Of a stretch of 6,105 bases of DNA, positions 1 to 6,105 are shown in pieces. Under the pieces are notes generated by a model, which did not search any database, was not told where the DNA came from, and saw only the letters and a list, made by a program, of their open reading frames with translations. Source of the DNA: an uncultured Lachnospiraceae bacterium (lineage in GTDB: Bacteria; Bacillota_A; Clostridia; Lachnospirales; Lachnospiraceae). The first letter of the stretch is position 1; each line of letters begins with the position of its first letter. The stretch spans positions 1 to 6,105 of the forward strand of contig CADBNG010000443.1 in assembly GCA_902795985.1 (NCBI GenBank), written 5' to 3'. Made by a program: the position numbers and the translations under genes.

Positions 1-2285
1 AATTTATTCCTCTGAATCTTCCCGCTCACCGTCTTCGGCAGTTCATCGCGGAAGACCACCAGTCTCGGATATTTGTAGGGGGCCGTGTTGGCCTTTACAT
101 AGTCCTGGATTTCTTTCTTTAATTCTTCCGTCGGCTCGGTGCCTTCCGTCAGAACGATGCTGGCCTTTACGATCTGGCCCCGGACTTCATCCGGGGCGGC
201 GGACACGCCGCATTCCAGAACATAGGGCAGCTCCATGATAACGCTTTCGATCTCAAACGGTCCGATCCGGTAGCCGGAGGATTTGATTACGTCATCGATC
301 CGGCCTACGTACCAGTAGAATCCGTCCTCATCCTTCCAGGCCGTATCCCCCGTATGATAATAGCCGTCGTGCCAGACCTCCGCGGTCTTTTCGGAATCCC
401 TGTAATACCCGGTAAACAGGCCGTTCGGAGCCCCGTCCGCAACCCGGATGACGATTTCGCCGGTTTCACCGGGCGGTACGGGTTTTCCGTCCTCGTCCAC
501 CAGCTCCACGTCGTAGATCGGAGCCGGTTTGCCCATGGATCCGACCTTATGGGTGGCGCCGGTCATGTTGCCGATCACCATGGTGGTTTCCGTCTGGCCG
601 AAGCCCTCCAGAATCTGAAGACCGGTAATCTTCTCAAACTGCCGGTATACTTCCGGATTCAGCGCTTCTCCGGCGCTGGTCATATGCTTGACCGAGGAAA
701 GATCATACTGGGAAATATCCTGCTTCACGAGCAGCCGGAGCATCGTCGGCGGCGCGCAGAAGGACGTAATATTGTATTTTGCGAACATCGGCAGGATATC
801 CGCCGCGTCAAAGCGATCGAAATCGTAAACGAACAGCCCGGCTTCACACAGCCACTGCCCGTAAAGTTTTCCCCACATGGCCTTGGCCCAGCCGGTATCG
901 GAAATGGTCAGATGCAGACCGTCCGGATCCACGCAGTGCCAGTATTTCGCCGTATGGAAATGTCCCAGCGGGTATTTATAATTGTGGGCCGCCATCTTGG
1001 GATAACCGGAGGTTCCGGAAGTGAAGAACATCAGCATCATGTCGTCGCCGCCCGGAGAAGTTTCCGTCCGGCGGAAGTGGGTGCTGTACAGCGGATATTC
1101 TTCGTCGAAGGTTCTCCATCCTTCTCTCTTGCCGTTAACAATGATCTTGATATCCAGTTCGGAATAATCCTGAAGGGCTTTATCCACTTCATCCGCCACA
1201 TCTCCGTCCGCGGTGCACAGGATCGCTCGGATTCCCGCGGCCCGGAAGCGGTATTCAAAATCATGCTCCTGCAGCTGGTTCGGCGCCAGGATGGCCACCG
1301 CGCCGATTTTGTTCAGGCCGAGAATCGCGAACCAGTACTGGTAATTCCGGCGCAGGCACAGCATCACTTTATCCCCGCGCTTAATGCCGATGGCCTTGTA
1401 ATAGTTCGCGCAGCGGTTGGACAGCCGCTTGATGTCGTTAAAGGTGAAGCGCCGTTCCACCTTATTGCGGTCGATGTGCAGAAGGGCCAGCTTGTTGGGG
1501 TCCTTTTTGGCCATTTCATCGATCAGGTCAAAGGCGAAGTTGAACTTCTCCGTGTTTTTAAAGGTAATCTTCGTCGGCGTACCGTTTTCGTTCTCTTCCA
1601 CTTCGATGAAACGATGCCAGATACGGTTCTGATCGTCCTCATCCCTCTTGGCGATCCTGGTCTGGACCTGCGCGCTGGGCGAAAGCTCCGGAATCGGCTC
1701 TCCCGTGGGATTCAGAACGATGGCGTAAAAGATGCAGTCTTCTTCCTCCACCGCGATCATGCCGTGGGGCGTGCTGCTGTCATAATAAATGGAATCGCCC
1801 TCATTCAGGATTTCCTTATGGGAGCCCACCTGCACGCACAGATGGCCGGAAACAACAATATCCAGCTCCTGCCCCGCGTGCGTCGTCAGCTCAATGTCCC
1901 GGTTCCGGGCATCCGGATCATAGGGGACATGGACATAAAGCGGTTCGGCAATCCTGTTCTTGAAAGCCGGCGCCAGGTTATGATAAATCATTCCATGGGC
2001 TTCGTCGATCCGCTGCCCTTCCCCTTTTCTTGTAAGGGTATAGGACTGCAGGGTCGGGCTGACGCCTTCGATGATATCCGTAACGTCCACGCCGAAGGCC
2101 AGGGCGCAGCGGTAAATAAACGCGAAGTTCAGATCCTGTTCGCCGTTTTCACAGGCCAGATACTCTTCAATGGTGGTATCGGTCTTATCCGCCATTTCCG
2201 CCGGGGTATATTTCTTGATTTCGCGCATCTCCTTGATACGCGACGCCATTTCTTTTATTTTGAAATCCAGTGCTGTAATATTCAT
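1..2285 (-). CDS. HTH (XRE)-cupin-acyl-CoA synthetase fusion protein, 3' end cut by window edge
   Basis: The frame is open for 761 codons from ATG at 2285 to the left edge with no stop; by family comparison only a short tail should be missing. Residues about 16-73 form an XRE-type helix-turn-helix, with the spacing from T27 to G48 matching the usual T-x3-LA...E-x-G pattern. Residues about 130-190 form a cupin fold with H136-x-G-x-E140 and GDSIYYDSSTPHG (163-175). Residues about 240-761 are an AMP-forming synthetase: SGTSGYPK (423-430), DTGWAK (463-468), GFGQTETT (561-568), TGD (645-647), the hinge region GRIDD (661-665), and PKTVSGK with the predicted catalytic Lys756. DTGWAK and the overall layout resemble medium-chain and aromatic acyl-CoA synthetases, which make acyl-AMP and then acyl-CoA from a free acid, ATP and CoA. 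The substrate cannot be read from sequence. No signal peptide or membrane segment is seen, so it should be cytosolic. The start is fixed by a good SD and a 4-nt overlap with the upstream ABC gene. Confidence 0.93.
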   Translation of the reverse strand, partial: MNITALDFKIKEMASRIKEMREIKKYTPAEMADKTDTTIEEYLACENGEQDLNFAFIYRCALAFGVDVTDIIEGVSPTLQSYTLTRKGEGQRIDEAHGMIYHNLAPAFKNRIAEPLYVHVPYDPDARNRDIELTTHAGQELDIVVSGHLCVQVGSHKEILNEGDSIYYDSSTPHGMIAVEEEDCIFYAIVLNPTGEPIPELSPSAQVQTRIAKRDEDDQNRIWHRFIEVEENENGTPTKITFKNTEKFNFAFDLIDEMAKKDPNKLALLHIDRNKVERRFTFNDIKRLSNRCANYYKAIGIKRGDKVMLCLRRNYQYWFAILGLNKIGAVAILAPNQLQEHDFEYRFRAAGIRAILCTADGDVADEVDKALQDYSELDIKIIVNGKREGWRTFDEEYPLYSTHFRRTETSPGGDDMMLMFFTSGTSGYPKMAAHNYKYPLGHFHTAKYWHCVDPDGLHLTISDTGWAKAMWGKLYGQWLCEAGLFVYDFDRFDAADILPMFAKYNITSFCAPPTMLRLLVKQDISQYDLSSVKHMTSAGEALNPEVYRQFEKITGLQILEGFGQTETTMVIGNMTGATHKVGSMGKPAPIYDVELVDEDGKPVPPGETGEIVIRVADGAPNGLFTGYYRDSEKTAEVWHDGYYHTGDTAWKDEDGFYWYVGRIDDVIKSSGYRIGPFEIESVIMELPYVLECGVSAAPDEVRGQIVKASIVLTEGTEPTEELKKEIQDYVKANTAPYKYPRLVVFRDELPKTVSGKIQRNK

Positions 2286-4192
2286 TCTTTATTCTCCTTA
2301 TTATCACCGCCGGTATAGAGCTGGTAATACTTTCCCTTCAGCTCCAGCAGCTGCTCGTGAGTTCCCCGTTCGATAATCCGGCCTGCTTCAAGAACCATGA
2401 TGCAGTCGGCGTTGCGGACTGTCGAAAGTCTGTGAGCGATTACGAAGCTTGTTCTTCCGCTCATCAGCTTATCCATCCCGTCCTGTACTATCCGCTCCGT
2501 TCTGGTATCGATCGAACTTGTAGCCTCGTCCAGAATCAGTACAGGCGGGTTGGCGACGGCGACCCGCGCAATGGACAATAGCTGCCGCTGTCCCTGGCTT
2601 AGTGATGCACCGTTGCCGGCCAGTACGGTGTTATATCCTTCCGGCAGTCTCCGGATGAAGTAGTCCGCGTTGGCCAGCTTCGCGGCTTCAATGACCTCTT
2701 CATCCGTTGCATCCAGTCTGCCGTACCGGATGTTTTCCATGACGGTTCCGGTAAACAGTGCCGTTTCCTGAAGCACCATACCCAGCGACCGCCGCAGTTC
2801 TCCTTTTTTGATCCTGGCAATATCGATCCCGTCATAGGTGATACTGCCGTCCTGAATATCATAGAACCGGTTGATCAGATTGATGATCGTGGTTTTTCCG
2901 GCGCCGGTAGTGCCGACAAAGGCGATCTTCTGACCCGGCTTTGCGTACAGACTGACGTCAAACAATACCTGTTTTTCCGGTATATAGCCGAAATCGACGT
3001 CTTTAAAGACGACTTCGCCCTTCATCGGGCGGTATTCCGGATTGCCGTCCCCGTTATCGTCCTTCTTCCAGGCCCAGCGTCCGGTACGTTCCTGGCACTC
3101 CTTCAGTGCCTCTCCCTCTTTCTGTACCCGCACCAGGTTGACATAACCGTCATCGGCTTCTTCCGGTTCATTCAGCAGGCGGAGAATCCGGTCCGCGCCG
3201 GCAAGCGCCATGACGATCGAATTCACCTGCATGCTGATCTGGAAAATCGGCATGGAGAAGTTCCGGTTAAAGGTCAGGAAGCTGGCGAGCCCGCCCAGTG
3301 TCAGGCCGGTGACTCCGGTAATGGTCAGGATTCCGCCCAGAATCGAGCAGAGCACATAACTCACATGACCGATCTGCGCGTTGACCGGGCCCATATAGTT
3401 GCCGTATTTATTGGCGTTGTAAGAGGAATCAAACAGATGCTCGTTCAGCTGCCTGAAATCCCTCTTGGCCTCTTCTTCATGGCAGAAAACCTTGACGACC
3501 TTCTCGCCCGTCATCATTTCCTCCACAAAGCCGTTCAGCTTGCCCACCGCGTTCTGCTGGGCAAAGAAATACTTACCGCTCTGGGTGCCGATTCTCTTGG
3601 TGACCAGCGCAACGACACCGACCATCGCCAGCGTCACAATCGTCAGCGGAACGTCCAGAATGAGCATGCTGATCAGCACGGATACAATCGTAAAACCGCT
3701 GTTGATCAGCTGCGGAATACTCTGATCGATCAGCTGGCGCAGCGTATCCACGTCGTTGGTGTACATGGACATGATATCGCCGCGGGCATGGGTGTCAAAG
3801 TACCGGATCGGAAGCCGCTCCATATGATGGAACATATCGTCCCGGATGTGTTTCATCGTGCCCTGGGTCACGCTGACCATTATATAGGCGCGAAGGAACG
3901 TCGCGGCAACACCGGCCGCGTAAAAGGCCGCCACTTTCAGGATCGCGGCTAGAAGCGGACCGAAATCCGGTTTTTCCTGTCCGATCATCGGAAGGATATA
4001 ATCGTCAATCAGCGTCCGCATGAACATGGTGCCCTGGACGGTCGCCAGAACCGTCACCACAATCATGGCAAGCACCAGGATATAGCGGAATTTGTAATAG
4101 CGGAAAATATATCCGATGATCTTTCCCAGAACTTTCATGGGATTCTCGACGGTATTTTTCGCTCCGAAATTAGTGCGTCGCGGGCCCGGCAT
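2282..4192 (-). CDS. ABC exporter half-transporter, catalytically consensus subunit (LmrD/TM288-like)
   Basis: This 636-aa type IV ABC exporter half has an N-terminal membrane domain (about residues 30-340, six predicted helices near 36-57, 78-100, 161-180, 181-198, 275-298 and 300-330) and a C-terminal ATPase domain (about 393-625). Visible motifs are Walker A GTTGAGKT (427-434), Q-loop Gln475, signature LSQGQ (531-535), Walker B VLILDE with Glu556, D-loop SSID and switch His587. Glu and His are intact, so its Walker motifs should form the hydrolysing site with the partner's VSGGQ, while its own LSQGQ departs from LSGGQ and should face the partner's degenerate site. A charged stretch of about 50 residues (343-392, containing GRWAWKKDDNGDGNPEYRP) lengthens the link between membrane and ATPase domains. 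The start ATG overlaps the TAA of the upstream ABC gene by one base and has a strong SD. The family exports drugs, lipids or peptides; the substrate here is unknown. Met19 is a possible but less likely start. Confidence 0.95.
   Translation of the reverse strand: MPGPRRTNFGAKNTVENPMKVLGKIIGYIFRYYKFRYILVLAMIVVTVLATVQGTMFMRTLIDDYILPMIGQEKPDFGPLLAAILKVAAFYAAGVAATFLRAYIMVSVTQGTMKHIRDDMFHHMERLPIRYFDTHARGDIMSMYTNDVDTLRQLIDQSIPQLINSGFTIVSVLISMLILDVPLTIVTLAMVGVVALVTKRIGTQSGKYFFAQQNAVGKLNGFVEEMMTGEKVVKVFCHEEEAKRDFRQLNEHLFDSSYNANKYGNYMGPVNAQIGHVSYVLCSILGGILTITGVTGLTLGGLASFLTFNRNFSMPIFQISMQVNSIVMALAGADRILRLLNEPEEADDGYVNLVRVQKEGEALKECQERTGRWAWKKDDNGDGNPEYRPMKGEVVFKDVDFGYIPEKQVLFDVSLYAKPGQKIAFVGTTGAGKTTIINLINRFYDIQDGSITYDGIDIARIKKGELRRSLGMVLQETALFTGTVMENIRYGRLDATDEEVIEAAKLANADYFIRRLPEGYNTVLAGNGASLSQGQRQLLSIARVAVANPPVLILDEATSSIDTRTERIVQDGMDKLMSGRTSFVIAHRLSTVRNADCIMVLEAGRIIERGTHEQLLELKGKYYQLYTGGDNKENKE
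2294..2299 (-). promoter_or_regulatory. Shine-Dalgarno site for the HTH-cupin-synthetase gene
   Basis: AAGGAG on the minus strand lies 8 nt before the ATG at 2285. It sits within the last codons of the upstream ABC gene, and the start codon overlaps that gene's stop as ATGA (2285-2282). This fixes the start and suggests translational coupling, so exporter and fusion protein are expected to be made together. Confidence 0.85.
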
Positions 4193-5943
4193 TACAGCTC
4201 ACCTCCCGCCTCGTCGAAGTCGCCGTTTCCGTTGTTCTGCGACTCGTACACTTCACTGTAAATGGCATTGGTCTTCAGCAGGTTTTCGTGAGTGTCAAAG
4301 GCGTCGATCCGGCCTTCGTTCATCACGATAATCCGGTCTGCGTCCTGGACGCTGGAAATACGCTGGGCAATTATGGTTTTGGTAATCTCCGGCAGATCCT
4401 CCCGGAACGCCCGGCGGATCCGGGCATCCGTCGCCGTGTCCACCGCGCTGGTGGAGTCGTCGAGGATCAGGACCTTCGGCTTCTTCAGCAGCGCCCTGGC
4501 GATACAGATTCTCTGCTTCTGTCCGCCGGACACATTGGTTCCGCCCTGCTGGATCATCGTATTGTATCCGTCCGGCATTTTTTCGATAAAATCATCGGCG
4601 CAGGCCAGACGGCAGGCCCTCCGGCAGTCCTCCAGGGAAGCTTCCGGGTCCCCCCATCGCAGGTTTTCGAGAATGGTCCCGGAAAACAGCTCGTTCTTCT
4701 GCAGGACCACGGCCACGTTGTTTCTCAGCGTCTCCATGTCATACTCCCGGACATCCAGTCCGCCGACTTTCACGCTGCCTTCATCCACGTCATACAGCCG
4801 GGAAATCATATTGATCAATGACGTCTTGGCACTGCCGGTTCCGCCGATAATCCCGATGGTCTCGCCGGAACGGATGCTCATGCTGATATCCCGGAGAACG
4901 GGTTCTTCACTGGTTTTATGATAACTGAAATAGACATGGTCAAACTCAATGCTGCCGTCCTTCACCTCATAAACCGGGTTCTCAGGATTGGCCAGGTCGC
5001 TGGTTTCATTCAGGACTTCGCAGATACGCTCGGCGCTGGCCTGGGACATGGTGATCATGACGAAAACCACCGACATCATCATCAGGCTCATCAGAATGTT
5101 CATGCAGTAGGTCAGCAGGCTCATCAGCTGTCCGGTGGTCAGGTCATCGGCAACGATCATTTTCGCGCCGACCCAGCTGATCAGGATGATGCAGGTGAAA
5201 ATCGCCGCATTCATAATGGCCGGAGCCCCGCAGATGGTGCGCTCCGCCTTCTTGAACACGTTGTAAATGCCCATGCTGGCTTTGTTGAACTTGTCAATTT
5301 CGTGGTCCTCGCGGACGTAGGCCTTGACAACCCGCATGCCGGCGACGTTTTCCTGAATGCTTTCGTTCAGCTCGTCATATTTAGGGAAAGCGGCCTTGAA
5401 GTATTTGATCGCCACACGCATGATCAGGAAGATCACGCAGGCAAGAATAATAATCGTAATCAGGTAGATATTGGCCAGTCTTGGACTGATGACGTAAGAC
5501 ATCACCATGGCGATAATCAGAGAGAACGGCGCGCGGATAAACATCCGCAGAATCATCATGAACGCGTTCTGGATATTGGTCACGTCCGTCGTCAGCCGGG
5601 TAACCAGGCTGGGCGTACTGAATTTGTCGATATTGGAAAAAGAAAAGGACTGGATATTGGCGAACATGGCCTCCCTTAAGTTCTTCGCCAGTCCGGCGGA
5701 GGCCTTTGCCGCTGCCGCCGCGCCGCCCATACCGGTGAAAAGACCGGCCAGCGCCGCTACCAGCATCCAGATGCCGACGATAATAATATGCCGGATATCG
5801 CCCTTTTCCACACCGTCGTCAATAATGGAGGCCATCAGCAGAGGAATAATCATATCCACAACAACCTCGGCGATCATGAAGATCGGCCCCAGGATGCTGT
5901 CCCTTTTGTATTCCTTTATATGACTTGCCAGCGTTTTAATCAT
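4192..5943 (-). CDS. ABC exporter half-transporter, degenerate-site subunit (LmrC/TM287-like)
   Basis: This 583-aa ABC exporter half has membrane helices predicted near residues 17-37, 53-75, 126-150, 155-178, 241-265 and 270-300, followed by an ATPase domain (about 330-565). Walker A reads GGTGSAKTS (367-375), with Ala372 where the last Gly of GxxGxGK normally lies. Gln415 is the Q-loop, VSGGQ (471-475) is a good signature, Walker B is VLILDD with Asp496 instead of the catalytic Glu, and the switch position is Gln527 instead of His. These are the hallmarks of the non-hydrolysing subunit in heterodimeric exporters, and the next gene carries the complementary set, so the two products should pair. 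ATG at 5943 is the only usual start codon after the in-frame TAA at 5982-5980, and the N-terminus matches the family length. Only a weak GAAG lies upstream, so no convincing SD supports it. The product is an inner-membrane protein; the substrate is unknown. Confidence 0.95.
   Translation of the reverse strand: MIKTLASHIKEYKRDSILGPIFMIAEVVVDMIIPLLMASIIDDGVEKGDIRHIIIVGIWMLVAALAGLFTGMGGAAAAAKASAGLAKNLREAMFANIQSFSFSNIDKFSTPSLVTRLTTDVTNIQNAFMMILRMFIRAPFSLIIAMVMSYVISPRLANIYLITIIILACVIFLIMRVAIKYFKAAFPKYDELNESIQENVAGMRVVKAYVREDHEIDKFNKASMGIYNVFKKAERTICGAPAIMNAAIFTCIILISWVGAKMIVADDLTTGQLMSLLTYCMNILMSLMMMSVVFVMITMSQASAERICEVLNETSDLANPENPVYEVKDGSIEFDHVYFSYHKTSEEPVLRDISMSIRSGETIGIIGGTGSAKTSLINMISRLYDVDEGSVKVGGLDVREYDMETLRNNVAVVLQKNELFSGTILENLRWGDPEASLEDCRRACRLACADDFIEKMPDGYNTMIQQGGTNVSGGQKQRICIARALLKKPKVLILDDSTSAVDTATDARIRRAFREDLPEITKTIIAQRISSVQDADRIIVMNEGRIDAFDTHENLLKTNAIYSEVYESQNNGNGDFDEAGGEL
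4199..4206 (-). promoter_or_regulatory. Strong Shine-Dalgarno site for the second ABC gene
   Basis: GGAGGTGA on the minus strand is a near-perfect anti-16S match, 6 nt before the ATG at 4192. It is encoded within the last Gly-Gly-Glu codons of the upstream ABC gene. The stop and start share one base (TAATG), the usual layout for coupled synthesis of two subunits of one complex. It supports Met1 over the internal Met19. Confidence 0.88.
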
Positions 5944-5979
5944 GATGGTCTTCGAACAGGGAGTACGGTCTGCGGATCC
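5944..5979 (-). other. Intergenic gap before the first ABC gene
   Basis: These 36 nt separate the upstream partial gene from the first ABC gene. I see no clear -10/-35 pair, no stable hairpin with a T-run, and no good SD; the best match is GAAG 6 nt before the ATG. It is too short for a convincing independent promoter, which supports transcription from further upstream, outside the window. Confidence 0.5.
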
Positions 5980-6105
5980 TTACAGCATGCTCTCCAGAAT
6001 GGCCAGGCTTTTCGGCCTGCGGTCAAGGATCCGGCTTCCGGCATTTTCAGCGATGCGCGATAATTGTAATATTTTATCATTCTCCAGCGTGAAAGTAAAG
6101 AGGCG
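5980..6105 (-). CDS. C-terminal end of an unidentified upstream gene (partial)
   Basis: An open frame runs from the right edge to TAA at 5982-5980, giving 41 residues that begin RLFTFTLENDKILQLSRIAE and end in LAILESML. It looks like a real, mostly helical protein tail, with regular hydrophobic spacing and charged residues between. I do not recognise the family. It is on the same strand as the ABC genes and ends 36 nt before the first of them, so it probably belongs to the same operon. In Clostridia such ABC pairs are often preceded by a MarR- or TetR-type regulator, but the 41 residues do not show a diagnostic motif for either, so this is context only. It also shares its reading frame with the following ABC gene, separated only by the TAA and 12 codons. 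Confidence 0.6.
   Translation of the reverse strand, partial: RLFTFTLENDKILQLSRIAENAGSRILDRRPKSLAILESML

Follow-up and report, generated by a model that had tools for sequence, protein, structure and literature searches.

Two described acyl-coenzyme A (acyl-CoA) synthetases come closest to the enzyme treated here, which is encoded on 6,105 nucleotides of an uncultured Lachnospiraceae bacterium (contig CADBNG010000443.1, positions 1 to 6,105; this whole stretch is called the window) and which carries a helix-turn-helix (HTH) and a cupin domain in front of the synthetase, in one reading frame. The first, MacsMa of Methanosarcina acetivorans, is a protein of 580 amino acids that starts at the synthetase and has no HTH-cupin part. 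It is reported to prefer 2-methylbutyrate and to depend on residues Tyr460, Arg490, Tyr525 and Tyr527 in its handling of CoA and on Trp259 in that of the acyl group (PMC10455477). The second, MbcS of Staphylococcus aureus, also lacks an HTH-cupin part; it is reported to activate 2-methylbutyrate and isobutyrate and to feed both into membrane lipids (PMC10026030), unlike what we propose for the fused protein.

The HTH-cupin part has described relatives of its own. Stand-alone XRE-cupin regulators such as PuuR and PsdR share its domain order (an HTH, then Cupin_2), its length and a His-Glu-His set of residues, whereas the family described here has an acidic HTH, an invariant Tyr42 and Asp51, and lies fused to, or directly before, a synthetase. 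HppE is a precedent for an HTH-cupin protein that is not a transcription factor. The biotin ligase-repressor BirA, which binds DNA, resembles the fused protein in having an HTH in front of an adenylate-forming enzyme, but its enzyme fold is another one and it has no cupin: the fused protein has an ANL synthetase, a cupin and an acidic HTH face, and the BirA type of biotin ligase fold with HTH is not what it shows.

The explanation that we favour, on balance, is that of a short branched-chain acyl-CoA synthetase with its HTH-cupin control module in cis. The original prediction, read from the letters of the window, had announced the fusion and two possible mechanisms for it; the present analysis adds a pathway from branched acids to valine and isoleucine, two paralogs, A and B, with different T-box codons, and a split ancestry.

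The fused protein, its family and its origin

The frame of the fused gene opens with an ATG at 2285-2283 on the minus strand and contains no internal stop. The window edge cuts the protein one residue short: a database protein that is 100% identical, P0001, has 762 amino acids. The features of the gene are as follows.

3..2285, minus strand: B-type paralog of the HTH-cupin-acyl-CoA synthetase gene, with 761 of its 762 residues inside the window
2294..2299, minus strand: Shine-Dalgarno-like AAGGAG ahead of the fused gene, read from the sequence
2061..2243, minus strand: XRE-type HTH, residues 15-75, net charge -6 (Pfam HTH_19)
2127..2183, minus strand: recognition helix and next loop, residues 35-53, acidic, with the invariant Tyr42 and Asp51
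1719..1892, minus strand: cupin, residues 132-189, with His136, Glu140 and His174, a possible metal site (Pfam Cupin_2)
1623..1718, minus strand: linker, residues 190-221, the site at which one gene stops and the next starts in split relatives
402..1520, minus strand: AMP-binding (adenylation) domain, residues 256-628 (Pfam, 214.8 bits)
873..887, minus strand: Ala467 (Gly in paralog A and in MacsMa) and Trp471 (MacsMa Trp259)
18..254, minus strand: AMP-binding_C domain, residues 678-756 (Pfam, 74.3 bits)
18-20, minus strand: catalytic Lys756, within AMP-binding_C

The in-frame fusion of three domains is real. The single uninterrupted frame with HTH, cupin and complete AMP-forming synthetase that had been predicted is the one listed above, its four Pfam domains (HTH_19, Cupin_2, AMP-binding and AMP-binding_C) all score over their cut-offs, and the domain limits first proposed (HTH 16-73, cupin 130-190) lie near those of Pfam. 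The prediction had also held that no separate synthetase is released near the junction, and this stands: over codons 185-261 the only start-type codons (ATG, GTG or TTG) are GTG 229 and ATG 258, neither of which is preceded by a Shine-Dalgarno-like stretch, and a hidden internal start is rejected, the junction offering no usable one. In the full-length structure model (pLDDT 82.3, pTM 0.68), residues 195-204 of the linker are modelled with low confidence and the placement of the modules on the synthetase is not fixed.

An assembly or frameshift artefact is excluded because the fusion recurs in 80 loci. One genome per species was scanned, and the best 80 of 287 loci encoding a relative were used: once the partial matches L028 and L054 had been set aside, they hold 145 fused open reading frames (ORFs), of which 143 are intact, with an intact one in every locus and a broken copy in L043 and in L072. 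Record titles place these loci in Clostridia, Oscillospiraceae, Ruminococcaceae and Lachnospiraceae, mainly from the rumen or gut of herbivores. The fused genes stand as a tandem of A and B in 63 loci, as B alone in 16 and as A alone in one; A, the upstream copy, is 60-67% identical to the window protein, and B, the downstream copy, 72-78%. The window protein groups with B in the synthetase tree. On one contig, JAFUKG010000032.1 (L079 and L080), the whole region of A, B and oxidoreductase genes occurs twice, in opposite orientation and with the same layout, which is either a true inverted duplication or an effect of assembly.

A protein search with residues 1-300 found 7382 proteins: 118 of the 120 listed ones that were examined exceed 700 amino acids, and the other two (509 and 590 amino acids) also carry HTH, cupin and AMP-binding domains. 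A second query, with residues 1-197, returned 600 proteins from 642 candidates, of which the 120 listed are 175-345 amino acids long and 65-79% identical; many of them lie on short contigs, some with a partial AMP-binding domain, and these short proteins are probably pieces of fused genes and not stand-alone copies. Proteins with this domain string abound in databases, where they go by generic names such as AMP-binding protein. Literature searches of openly licensed PMC papers found no description of the fusion or of the split pair discussed below, and what appears to be new is a MACS-type synthetase with a covalent HTH-cupin.

The closest solved structure is that of MacsMa, 3etc (611.8 bits over residues 222-759), and the fold match between it and the synthetase shows 47% identity. 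Allowing for a chain-numbering offset of 23, the five MacsMa residues named above fall, in the same order, on Tyr672, Arg702, Tyr737, Tyr739 and Trp471. All five are invariant in an alignment of 74 fused proteins, and so is Lys756, which the original prediction had rightly seen in place. MbcS is the best NCBIfam match, at 434.9 bits, far below the cut-off of 850 of its equivalog NF047394. The domains and conserved residues place the fused protein among predicted AMP-forming acyl-CoA synthetases of the MACS/MacsMa kind. When the two paralogs are compared at 85% or more, their synthetase parts differ at only three positions: 467 (Gly in A, Ala in B), 482 (Gly, Ala) and 569 (Leu, Met). Position 467 is one helical turn ahead of Trp471, and a change from Gly to Ala at this place could adapt the enzyme to an acid with one carbon fewer.

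Relatives in which the two parts are separate genes had been proposed as the natural comparison, and they are frequent. A search of the phylum covered 299 genomes and gave matches at 1e-100 or better in 61 of them, and 60 of the 76 match places were inspected for an HTH-cupin neighbour, the best 20 and 40 further ones. Three of the best 20 are fused, 15 have a separate HTH-cupin gene upstream and two have none; the separate gene encodes 177-196 amino acids, on the same strand as the synthetase and 9-516 bases from it. Among the 40 further places such a gene stands at ten, all with a synthetase at least 49.5% identical; it is missing at one place with 49.2% identity, and none of the 29 synthetases at 48% identity or less has it, although one of these 29, L134, has only about 240 bases of upstream sequence and carries little weight as an absence. 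Splits are confined to relatives with about 57% synthetase identity or less: the pattern that the original prediction had set against itself, close homologues consistently split at residues 190-245, is not seen.

A tree of 96 synthetases unites the fused genes in a single clade (support 0.958), which includes one unfused member, L088, and which is nested with the split pairs (support 0.90; 25 with HTH-cupin, four without); outside this group, 28 of 28 synthetases have no HTH-cupin. The tree of the N-terminal part also holds 39 fused sequences together (0.98), with paralog A at 0.98 and B at only 0.57. Since the fused genes are one clade nested among split pairs, the fusion arose, most simply, once, from an adjacent gene pair, and before the duplication into A and B. 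The split pairs of Clostridia have the same two parts in the same order, and they are inherited together: in 25 pairs the distance matrices of the two proteins correlate with r 0.96, a value reached in none of 2000 permutations, and one that vertical descent of adjacent genes would equally give. They differ from the fused gene in making two proteins; the same oxidoreductase genes lie near three of nine split loci examined, and a T-box motif stands before only one pair (L141).

Pathway neighbours and T-box leaders

Downstream of the fused genes, the 80 loci contain a CbiA-like ATPase in at least 63 cases, the alpha, beta and gamma subunits of an oxidoreductase in at least 55, 47 and 46, and a branched-chain aminotransferase in at least 48; all these are minimum counts, some genes being hidden by contig ends and by long antisense ORFs. 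The alpha subunit passes the NCBIfam cut-off for VorB and the aminotransferase that for branched-chain aminotransferases. A small ferredoxin subunit is present in all four loci scanned, and oxidoreductase genes are also near one of two further fused loci examined. The ATPase, a conserved CbiA/ParA-like protein of 220 residues, is encoded after the synthetase genes and before those of the oxidoreductase, at L003:10210-10857 and in 62 other loci, and has no match in NCBIfam.

Upstream, the Rfam T-box model (RF00230) scores over its cut-off ahead of fused genes in five of nine relative loci (L003, L009, L012, L041 and L066), other leaders falling under it, such as that of B in L009 (85.9 against 93). 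Among genes with enough upstream sequence, the antiterminator motif precedes 57 of 62 A genes and 72 of 76 B genes, and those without it are mostly in gapless, tight operons. The specifier position reads ATC, for isoleucine, in 57 of 57 A leaders; in the 72 B leaders it reads a valine codon, GTA in 65 and GTC in two, and the five that the script did not parse are GTA by eye. T-boxes respond to uncharged tRNA; the fused genes should therefore be made when isoleucine or valine is short, which points to supply, not breakdown.

As an internal check, 26 leaders were classed as other: CTC or CTG comes first in 20, which precede LeuA-like genes, and three belong to broken fused copies, with readings that include ATC, ATC and GTA. 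LeuA-like genes with leucine-codon T-boxes lie near the fused pair (L066:12731-12965, L012:2618-2860 on the minus strand, L001:12721-12962), with LeuA scores under the NCBIfam cut-offs. A LeuA-like gene also adjoins an ORF of 825 amino acids (L020:1185-3659) in which an AP_endonuc_2 TIM barrel, similar to xylose isomerase, is fused to a second AMP-binding ligase. A thiamine pyrophosphate riboswitch scores over its Rfam cut-off at L009:701-820.

In rumen and gut bacteria, isobutyrate has long been reported to be turned into valine and 2-methylbutyrate into isoleucine (Allison, Robinson and Peel, cited in PMC7356843), and it is on this route that we propose to place the fused enzyme. It would activate a branched volatile acid to its acyl-CoA, most likely isobutyrate in the case of the B type of the window, and 2-methylbutyrate in that of paralog A. 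In the relatives, the neighbouring 2-oxoacid:ferredoxin oxidoreductase would carboxylate the acyl-CoA reductively, and the aminotransferase would then yield valine or isoleucine. The T-box leaders would switch production of the enzyme at the RNA level, through the charging of tRNA-Val for B and of tRNA-Ile for A.

Making valine and isoleucine from pyruvate requires ilvC and ilvD. Both genes are missing in 12 of 13 fused genomes searched and both are found in two split genomes; in 16 genomes without a close synthetase, each is found in 11. A wider survey took in 147 genomes of a single order, 49 of them carrying a fused gene, and finds ilvC in 8 of these 49 against 61 of the other 98 (Fisher p 9e-8, uncorrected for kinship). 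Split or unfused close relatives have ilvC in 14 of 26, with no link. The completeness check, rpoB, is present in 45 of the 49 fused genomes and in 141 of all 147.

In other Clostridia these neighbours take part in oxidative routes, and the enzyme may be thought of as catabolic: branched-chain amino acids would be oxidised through the aminotransferase and the oxidoreductase, the synthetase running in reverse to give the free acid, or else the acyl-CoA would prime branched membrane fatty acids; the HTH-cupin would be a sensor of the load. Primers for branched fatty acids in C. thermocellum are reported to come from a similar oxidoreductase (PMC13011478), and MbcS, as noted, serves membrane lipids with the same two acids. 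We consider this reading improbable: isoleucine and valine T-boxes turn genes on when charged tRNA is scarce, which fits supply, and ilvC and ilvD are usually missing from the fused genomes.

Some of the counts pull the other way, against the biosynthetic route that we favour. A looser parse of the codons gives ATC in 53 of 59 A leaders and GTA or GTC in 70 of 73 B leaders; the eight fused genomes that do carry ilvC have to be accounted for; leuB, too, is less frequent where the gene is fused (in 13 of 49 genomes, against 73 of 98 others); and no T-box leader (RF00230) is seen within the window for its own copy of the fused gene.

The HTH-cupin module

The net charge of the HTH is near -5 in this family, whether fused or not: its mean is -5.24 in 118 fused proteins (-8 to -3) and -5.17 in 120 stand-alone ones (-9 to 0), against +1.50 in ten ordinary XRE-cupins (-2 to 5). 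These controls are what remains of 12 stand-alone cupin ORFs, chosen by length from the same genome set, after L163 and L166, which lack an HTH, were dropped. Tyr42 is found in 118 of 118 fused and 119 of 120 stand-alone proteins, Asp51 in all 118 and all 120, and both are missing in the ten controls. At the positions that align with the DNA contacts of the 434 repressor, the window protein has Ile, Glu, Ala, Glu and Asp. The charge by itself does not prove that DNA binding was lost.

Ahead of the T-boxes, a standard promoter is present in 41 of 42 A regions and in 55 of 55 B regions, and these regions show no convincing shared operator: no dyad recurs in more than five of the 42 A regions, where it is a T-run, or in more than three of the 55 B regions. 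The B regions contain 80 dyads, against a mean of 55 and a maximum of 86 in shuffled sequences.

Because the HTH is acidic, no convincing shared operator is seen before the T-box leaders and a T-box already controls the expression of most fused relatives, we hold with moderate confidence that control of the enzyme by the HTH-cupin is likelier than DNA binding. The module, formerly the separate product of an upstream gene, would most likely no longer bind DNA, if it ever did; the cupin would sense a metabolite of the pathway, and the acidic HTH would be a protein contact that tunes the synthetase. The original prediction had offered two mechanisms, an enzyme that senses its own substrate or product through the cupin and a regulator whose DNA binding depends on catalysis: the first is the one we retain, and the second is disfavoured on the same three grounds.

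That second mechanism would make the protein a bifunctional enzyme and regulator in the manner of BirA, with an HTH that binds DNA and is switched by the acyl-adenylate, the acyl-CoA or the ligand of the cupin, the enzyme reporting its own state to the promoter. We think it unlikely, in view of the charge of the HTH, the residues aligned with the 434 contacts, the lack of a convincing shared operator before the T-box leaders and the T-boxes that most fused genes are already under. Several observations nevertheless speak for it, and so against enzyme-level control. HTH_19 passes its Pfam cut-off and is strongly conserved across the fused proteins, and the HTH-cupin model has, among its fold matches, the solved structure of a true XRE-cupin regulator, 1y9q. 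Nine of the 14 A/B-specific positions lie in the HTH and the strand after it, and these differences could also reflect an altered DNA specificity. The charge controls are only ten, and their range overlaps slightly with that of the stand-alone proteins. The 81 dyads of the A regions exceed the shuffled mean (53) and even the shuffled maximum (80), driven by T-runs. Finally, with a T-box before only one split pair, the split operons need some other transcriptional control, which the HTH-cupin could supply.

In the fold search, ranks 1-10 for the HTH-cupin model are all HppE chains (2bnm and 1zz6; about 22-24% identity; HppE has no synthetase), with TM-scores below 0.5 and a root-mean-square deviation of about 10 over both domains. 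One could suppose that the module catalyses a reaction of its own on the acid or the acyl product, as the iron enzyme HppE does on its substrate, and that the fusion joins two catalytic steps; His136, Glu140 and His174 are indeed invariant in 54 fused and split sequences. This we regard as very improbable: nine, ten and nine of the ten ordinary XRE-cupins have the equivalent residues, the fold match is poor by its TM-scores and deviation, and HppE-type enzymes use oxygen or peroxide, whereas the hosts here are gut Clostridia. With HppE in the lead, a true regulator next and all TM-scores below 0.5, the fold search is not decisive between a regulator and an HppE-like enzyme. The metal site was also considered as a mark that would distinguish a sensor, and is rejected, the ordinary XRE-cupins having the same residues.

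The window and the wider family

Two further genes are complete in the window, and with the fused gene they apparently form one transcription unit.

2282..4192, minus strand: half of an ABC exporter (ABC_membrane and ABC_tran), 636 amino acids, overlapped by the start of the fused gene through ATGA
4192..5943, minus strand: second ABC exporter half, 583 amino acids, with a one-base overlap with the next gene

This MsbA-like pair (2282-5943), which precedes and overlaps the fused gene, was not seen as its partner in the other loci inspected. At 5980-6105, minus strand, are the final 41 codons and the stop of another gene, 37 bases ahead of the first ABC gene. An ORF of 654 codons (354-2318, plus strand) runs antisense to the fused gene; the related loci repeatedly show shadow ORFs of this sort, apparently an effect of composition. 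The genes downstream of the fused gene are beyond the edge of the window, and its role in the pathway would be inherited from that of its relatives.

A broader conjecture, which we put forward tentatively, is that many proteins labelled XRE-cupin transcription factors in fact serve acyl-CoA synthetases as dedicated regulatory subunits, their genes lying directly before that of the enzyme in most of the clade and being fused to it in one gut lineage. What was a DNA-binding helix would have become an acidic protein contact, and the cupin would read a metabolite of the pathway, for example valine, isoleucine or one of the corresponding acids. The T-box would set the amount of enzyme in the fused lineage and the HTH-cupin its activity, and paralogs A and B would be the missing activation enzymes of the rumen routes.

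The fused paralogs, the codons of their T-boxes and their neighbours give concrete genes for the activation step of the rumen routes to valine and isoleucine, and, with an acid predicted for each paralog, make the question of activation directly testable. If it is true that the HTH-cupin controls an enzyme and not DNA, thousands of database entries for XRE regulators would be misnamed, one stand-alone member alone having 3689 database relatives, and the HTH fold would be seen in a new role, that of an allosteric element within a metabolic enzyme.

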